A program made the translations under genes and the position numbers. A stretch of 64,000 bases of DNA from Euzebya rosea (GTDB taxonomy: Bacteria; Actinomycetota; Nitriliruptoria; Euzebyales; Euzebyaceae): the NCBI RefSeq assembly GCF_003073135.1, contig NZ_PGDQ01000005.1, forward strand, positions 124,001-188,000. The letters run 5' to 3'. The notes beneath the pieces were generated by a model. The model did no database searches, was not told the origin of the DNA, and saw only the letters and a program-made list of their open reading frames with translations. Shown one piece after another: positions 25,043-28,102 of this stretch (within the stretch, counting starts at the first letter, position 1; the number at the start of each line of letters is the position of its first letter).

Positions 25043-25529
25043 GGGGCGAGCAGGGCTAGTCGGTTCGGGGCCTGTCGATCCCTCGCGACGTCGACTACAT
25101 GCGAGTGGTTGCATGGCAGAAACGCTGATTTACCTGTCCATACGGGAGTCAGCGTTGCTTGCGTATGCCCCCCACCGGAACTAGCCTCCCACAGCGGTCG
25201 TGGATTGTGATCGGGTTCGCATTCGATCTCGATTCACCCGTAACGGATCGCTCGTCGGGTGCGTCACTGCACCGGACACCGCCACGGGGAACCGCGGTGG
25301 GAGATCCACAGCAAACAACTGCAGATGGAGAGAACTCGCGCGCAGCCGAGGCGCGCCCCGGGATTACCGAGAGCCGATGGTGGGGACGTGTTCCCATGGG
25401 ACGCTCAGGTATGGGGGCCGCAGATGACCCAGCCGGAGAACCGGTGCGCGGGTCGGGTGCGCAGTGAGACACCCTCAATATCTGCTTGTTCCGCAATAAG
25501 GAAGTCGAGGCTCTAGGAGGCCTTTTCCA
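25043..25529 (+). other. Long gene-free leader of the CWB2 surface-protein gene
   Basis: About 490 bases with no supportable gene. It contains a stem-loop with perfect arms AACGCTGA (25121-25128) and TCAGCGTT (25149-25156), extended inward by CCTGT/ACGGG pairing. It ends in a strong AGGAGG site (25515-25520) before the ATG at 25530. Local composition is lower in G+C than the flanks. It probably holds the promoter and a structured 5' untranslated region; I could not match it to a riboswitch class by eye. Confidence 0.5.
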
Positions 25530-26699
25530 ATGACAATCACCAAGACTGGTCGCCGCGTGGCGTTCCTCGGTCTGCTGGCGCTGGTAGTGGCAATCCTGCC
25601 GCTCACCGCCGCTTCGGCCCAGGACGCGACGTACATCGACTTTGACATCAACGAGGACTTCGAGGCCAGCGACGCGCTGCAGACCTCGATCCTCGCCAGC
25701 CAGCAGGCGTTCCCGGACGGTGCTGACACCGTCCTGCTGACCACCTCCGAGGACGGCGCCGACGCGCTGGTCTCCGGTGTGCTCGCCAACGACGCTGCGC
25801 TGCTGTACTACAACACCGACGAGGGCGTCGTCGACGCGCACGTCGACGAGATCACCCGCCTGGGTGCGACCGACGTCATCATCATCGGTGGCACCGAGCG
25901 CATCTCCGAGGACGTCGCTGACGCCCTCGAGGGCATGGGCCTGACCGTCACCCGCCTGGCTGGCGACGAGCGCATCACCACGGCCAACGAGGTCCTGGAG
26001 TACGCCGAGGCCAACCGCGACGACTTCAACGAGACCGCCTCGCACCTGTCCCGCGCCTTCGGCACCGAGGACAACTCCCAGACCGCCTTCGCTGACGCTG
26101 TCGGCCTGGGTGCATGGGACGCGCAGGGCGGCGCCGGCACCGTGCTGGCCCCCTCCGACGCTGAGGTCCTCTCCCCCGAGTACCCCACCACCCAGTACTT
26201 CACCGACGTGAACCCGGAGAACGAGACCATCGTTCCGATCGGTGGCGTCGCTGCCGTCCCGGCCGAGGTCGTCGACTACCTGACCGGCGAGCCCGCCGAG
26301 CAGACCGCTGGTGACCGCGTCGAGAACGAGGAAGCCAACAACCGCGCCGGCACCGCCGTCGCGATCAACGAGGCCCGTGGCCTGGACGCGTCCGACCTGG
26401 ACGGCGTCGTCGTCGTGGATGCCTTCGCTGACAACTTCTTCATCGACGCCTACGCCACCTCCGCGCTGGCCGGCAACAACAACTACGCGGTCATCGTCTC
26501 CAACGGCGACGAGCTCTCCCCCGAGTCCGCTGAGTGGCTCGGTTCCCCCCGCGTTCGCCCAGAACGACGGCACCACCTCCGTGTTCTGCATGCCGAAGAC
26601 CTCCGGTCCGGCGTGTGCCCAGACCGTGACCGCCACCGGTGGCGACCCCGAGGACATCGAGACCGTCTCCCTCGACTCCGAGCCCGAGGCGTCCGCTGA
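25530..26699 (+). CDS. CWB2-repeat surface (S-layer-like) protein, N-terminal part up to a frameshift
   Basis: Exported acidic protein with signal peptide about 1-31 ending in ASAQD. It contains cell-wall-binding repeat 2 (CWB2) modules. One has DTVLLTTSEDGADAL, then TDVIIIGGTERISEDVADAL, TRLAGDERITTANEV; a second has IVPIGGVAAVPAEVVDYL; a third begins NRAGTAVAINEARG and DLDGVVVVDAFADNF. CWB2 triplets anchor surface proteins to anionic cell-wall polymers. As read, the frame is genuine to about residue 338 (EWLG) and then turns into out-of-frame Arg/His-rich sequence until 26699. The continuation is in the next frame, so this and the following entry are one gene of about 808 residues (25530-27957) broken at C6 26545-26550. 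GCT codons for Ala are unusually frequent compared with neighbours, suggesting high expression. Confidence 0.85.
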   Translation: MTITKTGRRVAFLGLLALVVAILPLTAASAQDATYIDFDINEDFEASDALQTSILASQQAFPDGADTVLLTTSEDGADALVSGVLANDAALLYYNTDEGVVDAHVDEITRLGATDVIIIGGTERISEDVADALEGMGLTVTRLAGDERITTANEVLEYAEANRDDFNETASHLSRAFGTEDNSQTAFADAVGLGAWDAQGGAGTVLAPSDAEVLSPEYPTTQYFTDVNPENETIVPIGGVAAVPAEVVDYLTGEPAEQTAGDRVENEEANNRAGTAVAINEARGLDASDLDGVVVVDAFADNFFIDAYATSALAGNNNYAVIVSNGDELSPESAEWLGSPRVRPERRHHLRVLHAEDLRSGVCPDRDRHRWRPRGHRDRLPRLRARGVR

Positions 26700-27957
26700 C
26701 GCTGGCACGGTCATCGACACCGACGGTGCGACCTTCTACGACTACCAGCCCGAGGACGGCTCCGCCGTCGTCACCGTGGACTTCGCCGATGACGACCAGA
26801 ACGTCTTCTTCGTCGATGGCACCCAGGCCACCTACGCCGTCTTCGCCGGCCAGATCGGTGCAGGCGACTACATCGAGGTCGAGGTCGACGACGCCGGTAC
26901 CCCGGACGACGACTCCGACGACATCACCACCCACCGCCTGACCAACGTCGAGGCTGCCGAGACCGGCACCGTCGGCAACGTCAACACCGCTGCGGGCACC
27001 TTCGAGATCATCGAGCCGGTCTCCGGTGCCACGATCTCCGCTGCGCCGATCGACTACACCGCTGAGTGCGACCTGTTCCAGGTCAACGGCGGCGTCGTGA
27101 TCGCTGCGCAGTTCGAGGCCGCCCTCAACGAGGGTGACACCTTCGACAAGTCCGAGGACGCTGCGGGCAACGTCACCTGCATGATCACCGACGGCACCGT
27201 TGCCGGCGTGGTCACCGTTGATGACACCCCCGGTGCCGAGTACTTCCAGATCGGCAACCTGGGCGACGACTTCGCTTCGGCCAACGACGACACCTTCGTC
27301 GCCACCATGGCGAAGTTCGACGCCGGTGACCTGGTCATCAACGTCGACGGTGAGCCCATCACGGACTACTCCGACTTCGCCGACGTCCTGTCGGACGGCG
27401 ACCAGGCCGAGTACAGCCGCGCCAACGACACCGAGACCATCTCGCTGACCAACGGTCTGCCGACGACGGTTTCCGGTCAGGCCATCGACGACGCGACCCC
27501 CGGCGACGGCTTCTTCATCGCCACCAACCCCGGTGTCGAAGAGGCTCCGGACCCGCAGGTCGACGACCGCTTCATCGTGAACGGCATCCTGGCGACCGAG
27601 GCTGACTTCGTCGCTGCGTACTCCGCTGGCGACGCCGTCTCCTACACCCCCGAGGACGTTGCTGGTGGCACCGACGCCACCTACACCCTCTCCGACCAGG
27701 ACCTGGCCGGCCCCGTTGGCGTCGTCGCCGGGACCACCTACGAGGTCCTGTCCTCCGAGGGCGACGAGGTCCTCGAGGTCGTCGACTACACCGCCGGCGT
27801 CCCTGCCGACCGGTACTTCGTCGACGGCGAAGAGGTTGACGAGCCGACCTTCACCGCGGCTCTGGCCGACATCACCGCTGGTGACACCGAGGGCGACATC
27901 GTCGTCATCGATGGCACCCTGGCTGTCGAGCACCGTCTGACCACCACCGAGGTCTAG
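26542..27957 (+). CDS. CWB2-repeat surface (S-layer-like) protein, C-terminal part after the frameshift
   Basis: Continuation of the surface protein in the +1 frame, starting around AFAQNDGTTSVFCMPKTSG; no start codon of its own is needed if the two halves are one gene. About 470 residues, very acidic, rich in Asp, Thr, Val, Gly. It holds repeated units of the form 'y-F-V-D/N-G-x-x-A-T-x-A-x-F-x-A-x-x-x-x-G-D', for example NVFFVDGTQATYAVFAG, LFQVNGGVVIAAQFEAAL, RFIVNGILATEADFVAAY and RYFVDGEEVDEPTFTAAL, each followed by a strand-rich segment. These look like tandem beta-domains of the exposed shaft or lattice region. Two Cys (about 26587 and 26607) may pair. Two stem-loops follow the stop. 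Confidence 0.8.
   Translation, partial: VPPAFAQNDGTTSVFCMPKTSGPACAQTVTATGGDPEDIETVSLDSEPEASADAGTVIDTDGATFYDYQPEDGSAVVTVDFADDDQNVFFVDGTQATYAVFAGQIGAGDYIEVEVDDAGTPDDDSDDITTHRLTNVEAAETGTVGNVNTAAGTFEIIEPVSGATISAAPIDYTAECDLFQVNGGVVIAAQFEAALNEGDTFDKSEDAAGNVTCMITDGTVAGVVTVDDTPGAEYFQIGNLGDDFASANDDTFVATMAKFDAGDLVINVDGEPITDYSDFADVLSDGDQAEYSRANDTETISLTNGLPTTVSGQAIDDATPGDGFFIATNPGVEEAPDPQVDDRFIVNGILATEADFVAAYSAGDAVSYTPEDVAGGTDATYTLSDQDLAGPVGVVAGTTYEVLSSEGDEVLEVVDYTAGVPADRYFVDGEEVDEPTFTAALADITAGDTEGDIVVIDGTLAVEHRLTTTEV
26545..26550 (+). other. C6 tract at the frameshift point of the surface-protein gene
   Basis: With five C the sequence reads through as G-S-P-A-F-A-Q-N-D-G, joining both halves smoothly; with six C the frame breaks. 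The run also offers a CCC-C site for +1 slippage. Assembly error, phase variation and programmed shifting are all possible. Confidence 0.75.
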
Positions 27958-27989: not shown

Positions 27990-28003
27990 TCGCTAGACAC
28001 AGG

Positions 28004-28035
28004 CTTGGGCCCCATCCATCCGGATGGGGCCCAAG
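28004..28035 (+). terminator. Strong hairpin terminator after the surface-protein gene
   Basis: Perfect 14-bp arms CTTGGGCCCCATCC (28004-28017) and GGATGGGGCCCAAG (28022-28035) with an ATCC loop, followed by TCGTTT. A very stable terminator that isolates the surface-protein gene from the glycan locus. Confidence 0.8.
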
Positions 28036-28102
28036 TCGTTTCCGCACCGGTACCGTCTTGGGTCGAGGATCCGCCGGGCAGGACGAGAGGACACAGACGT
28101 TG

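Follow-up and report, generated by a model that had tools for sequence, protein, structure and literature searches.

A gene for a CWB2 surface protein, spanning positions 25530–27957 of the plus strand of the window (the whole 64-kb stretch of DNA analysed, C5:124001–188000 of the genome), changes reading frame at a tract of six C. Since an ortholog from the same genus reads on across the junction, the comparison of the two sequences confirms that the gene is truly frame-broken relative to its homolog. The reading we favour, at about an even chance, is that the clone that was sequenced recently lost the frame of an abundant S-layer-like protein.

Reading frames, flanks and relatives of the broken gene

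The preliminary description of this DNA had placed the gene in one frame up to 26544 and in the +1 frame from 26551 to 27957, one base apart at the C6 tract, and had calculated that one C fewer would give an 808-residue protein; both the coordinates and the arithmetic are right. As assembled, the first ORF encodes 389 aa: about 340 native residues up to ...EWLGSP, and then about 47 missense residues forming an Arg-rich tail (RVRPERRHH...GVR) that ends at a premature stop. The +1 frame reads AFAQNDGTTSVFCMP... and continues for 468 aa. Around the tract the frame is TCC CCC CGC, the codon after CCC being CGC and not a stop. The break separates the three CWB2 anchor domains, kept in the 5' part, from the C-terminal repeat region, which is lost. 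The features of the gene and its flanks are collected in Table 1.

Table 1. Features in and around the broken CWB2 gene (positions in the window)
Feature	Positions	Strand	Description and basis
Leader between upstream ORF and CWB2 gene	25211–25529	+	AGGAGG shortly before ATG; 25300–25529 well conserved in G022
5' part of broken gene	25530–26699	+	Signal-peptide-like N-terminus, three CWB2 domains (translation, Pfam PF04122, ortholog identity)
C6 tract with frame change	26545–26550	+	Five C in the G022 ortholog (DNA alignment)
3' part, +1 frame	26551–27957	+	468-aa C-terminal region with repeats of ~80–90 aa (translation, 80% identity to G022)
GC-rich inverted repeat after stop	28001–28040	+	TTGGGCCCCATCC...GGATGGGGCCCAA; conserved in G022; looks by eye like a terminator stem

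The leader is presumed to hold the promoter and 5' UTR, and is possibly an untranslated regulatory leader; a search of the 64-kb window, leader included, against Rfam gave no family at the gathering score. A consensus scan for promoters and terminators found none and did not call the stem after the stop codon.

The syntenic ortholog in another genome of the genus (G022) is one intact ORF of 814 aa, with five C at the tract, and reads ...EWLGSPAFAQNDGTT... across the junction. An aspartyl-tRNA synthetase gene lies just upstream in both genomes, and the two proteins are 90% identical before the break (residues 1–341) and 80% identical after it. A more distant homolog, in genome G023, likewise crosses the junction in a single frame. 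Because both relatives read through, the ancestral gene is, by sequence comparison, a single frame. Scans of contigs by protein and by junction pattern found no independent isolate. On the minus strand of a 3.5-kb contig of G023 (C8, ~312–1357) we observed a CWB2 homolog (L063) whose frame changes and which lacks a stretch close to the end of its CWB2 region; it may be another broken copy, or an artefact of assembly.

Domains and predicted fold of the protein

Three stretches in the 5' part of the gene match Pfam family PF04122 (E = 7.6e-19; 68.5 bits against a cut-off of 24.9), and the same is found in the ortholog; the protein thus carries the domain in tandem above the Pfam cut-off, in the normal number of three. 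The NCBIfam model for Clostridioides difficile SlpA (NF033435) gives only a local match of 32.1 bits, below its equivalog cut-off of 650, and the protein is therefore not assigned to that family. It resembles C. difficile SlpA (an S-layer protein anchored by CWB2 domains, PF04122) in having a secretion signal, three CWB2 domains and a large extra domain, but in the present protein the CWB2 domains are N-terminal, and no homology was found for the rest of the protein. The genome (5.51 Mb in 40 contigs) contains at least 159 matches to PF04122, an unusually large family of surface proteins. Such an abundance of CWB2 genes, in DNA of very high GC content, may point to Euzebya or a related actinobacterium.

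Codon bias points to high expression of the gene, and its product is likely to be an abundant S-layer-like protein anchored to the wall. The C-terminal region consists in part of several repeats with a VDG...GD pattern, and is present in few genomes of the class. No Pfam family scored above cut-off in this region, either in the protein itself or in the ortholog; a PDZ match of the C-terminal part was below the Pfam cut-off and covered a short stretch, and was judged to be a local resemblance. A structure model of the region was built from an alignment of eight sequences, with moderate confidence (mean pLDDT 70.9, pTM 0.46). The structure that matches it best is that of the self-assembly domain from the Viridibacillus arvi S-layer protein (PDB 9fs9), with a Foldseek probability of 1.00 at 31% identity and a VIA-align Z of 9.1 (rmsd 3.1, 78/82 residues, 28% identity; Z 6.8 for the next row). 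The likeness is one of predicted fold and does not extend to detectability by sequence, as searches with the C-terminal region did not recover 9fs9. The modelled resemblance supports an S-layer role for the CWB2 protein, short of proof, and the beta-rich C-terminal repeats are probably used for surface assembly.

Age of the break and survey of the assembly

In the DNA alignment of the gene with its G022 ortholog, all remaining indels are multiples of three or are compensated. The effective number of codons (Nc) is 26.7 and 27.7 for the two halves, a very strong codon bias in each, and that of the ortholog (27.0) is the third strongest among 169 long ORFs (two ORFs are lower). From the frame-keeping indels and the strong codon bias of both halves, it follows that the break either arose long after the species had separated or is not real. 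The dN/dS ratio against G022 is 0.37 upstream of the break and 0.51 downstream (dS is low), compared with 0.13 for the median gene pair of the same contig; the whole CWB2 protein is fast-evolving, and its 3' part is still under coding-type evolution. That the 3' frame is free of stops is a weak sign of youth in such GC-rich sequence: the probability of finding no stop downstream is 0.54 even if 20% of the branch had drifted neutrally.

We surveyed four contigs (C5, C3, C11 and C13) against the matching regions of G022, a comparison that took in 628 G022 genes matched at 70% or better (256,632 aa, ~770 kb of coding sequence). Seven candidate frame breaks within gene bodies were found in the genome, and by DNA alignment only the one in the CWB2 gene is a single clean base. 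The other six look like ORF over-extension or fusion, mostly showing multiple untidy indels or a large insertion where two genes adjoin. No further CWB2 gene with a clean tract break was found on these four contigs. A place near a short CWB2 gene (L117), flagged by a codon-model scan for frame switches, is an apparent antisense chance hit. One clean break per ~770 kb of coding sequence speaks against a sequencing platform prone to indels, and frequent indel errors are not a general feature of this assembly; a single error is still compatible with this figure.

The tract itself is ordinary. There are 33 C/G runs of six or seven in the 64-kb window; on one 400-kb contig, C/G runs number 971 at a length of five, 140 at six and 7 beyond six, and the ORFs of one contig (328 kb) contain 106 runs of at least six. 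The C6 tract is no specialised switch, because C5 and C6 runs are very common in the genome, and at six bases it is not unusually long, as the tract of a phase-variable gene would be.

Origin of the extra base and its meaning

A recent mutation is favoured because the sole clean break in the survey hits a gene that is among the most codon-biased and that encodes a surface protein; a random consensus error would seldom land in such a gene. The intact protein would have a secretion signal, three CWB2 anchors and, towards its C-terminus, beta-rich repeats arranged in a row. In the sequenced clone, and shortly before sequencing on an evolutionary scale, an ordinary run of five C would have become six by replication slippage, and the truncated protein would end just past the anchor region, with its assembly half lost. 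A costly and probably dispensable surface protein would have been hit by a recent mutation, with no evolved switch involved. Surface layers are often dispensable in culture; a search of the literature on S-layer loss in laboratory culture found nothing usable. We infer that the extra C is truly in the cell, and it may be absent from it. If it is absent, the error lies in the consensus or the assembly, the cell's tract is as in the ortholog and the gene is whole. The preliminary description had named sequencing error as a possibility, and it has become a serious one, a close rival that we rate somewhat short of an even chance: homopolymer length is a common type of error, the ortholog has five C, one indel per ~770 kb of coding sequence is within the range of a good consensus, and the 3' half is constrained, codon-optimised and free of secondary lesions, as expected for an intact gene. 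The gene also looks highly expressed, so that its natural loss would be costly. Against an error stands the finding that none of the 628 conserved genes has a second clean single-base break, despite the abundance of C/G runs of six or more.

The explanations that would keep the full-length protein in use, or retire it long ago, fare less well. Phase variation, in which changes of tract length at high frequency would toggle the S-layer-like protein, had been proposed at the outset and is now improbable. It would suit a tract in a surface-protein gene whose break spares the anchor and removes the outer part, and there is a precedent in the meningococcus, where a tract in NMB1760 alternates between C5 and C6 between strains (PMC5084427). 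That is one case, however: the variable meningococcal tracts are predominantly of at least 8 nucleotides (PMC5084427). The poly-C genes of the meningococcus and the present gene are alike in having poly-C in a surface gene where one base loses the frame (PMC5084427), but the present tract is shorter than is typical there and of a class that is common in this genome. The only close ortholog has five C, and no other clean break, in the other surveyed CWB2 genes or elsewhere in the survey, accompanies the hundred or so runs of at least six that 328 kb of ORFs contain. A weaker form of the idea, to which we give a slighter chance still, is that the tract, lying at the boundary between anchor and assembly regions, may be a low-rate contingency site that yields either the full coat protein or an anchor-only form. 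The lineage in question has more than 100 copies of the CWB2 domain per genome. Slippage had been the other proposed mechanism, and programmed or leaky +1 frameshifting at CCC-C, yielding some full-length protein, now appears very unlikely. TCC CCC CGC does contain the known slippery sequence CCC-CG, in the right direction, which when adjoining a start codon in E. coli gives up to ~1% of +1 shift (PMC4519876), and the RNA around it folds with some stability (z −2.5); low-level leaky read-through at this site is, by this analogy, possible. But the ortholog is in frame and does not use a shift, so that the mechanism is not conserved as it would be in a programmed +1 gene. The codon that comes next is CGC, neither a stop nor a pause codon, and no stimulatory element was identified. 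Ordinary +1 errors occur at less than 0.003% (PMC4519876), and leakage at a low level would be too little for an abundant protein. Least credible of all is that the gene split in two long ago or is a decayed pseudogene: two open frames are present, but the syntenic ortholog is intact (90% and 80% identity in the two parts), there are no further lesions, the codon bias is kept in both halves and nothing gives reason to count the 3' frame as a gene of its own.

Should the additional C prove genuine, the strain that was sequenced is probably without its normal surface coat, a point of importance for work on the envelope, adhesion and phages of this lineage. If it is not, an abundant S-layer-like protein has been mis-annotated as two fragments. 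Through the resemblance of its predicted C-terminal fold to 9fs9, this protein would be an initial candidate, open to testing, for the role of main S-layer protein in this CWB2-rich group.
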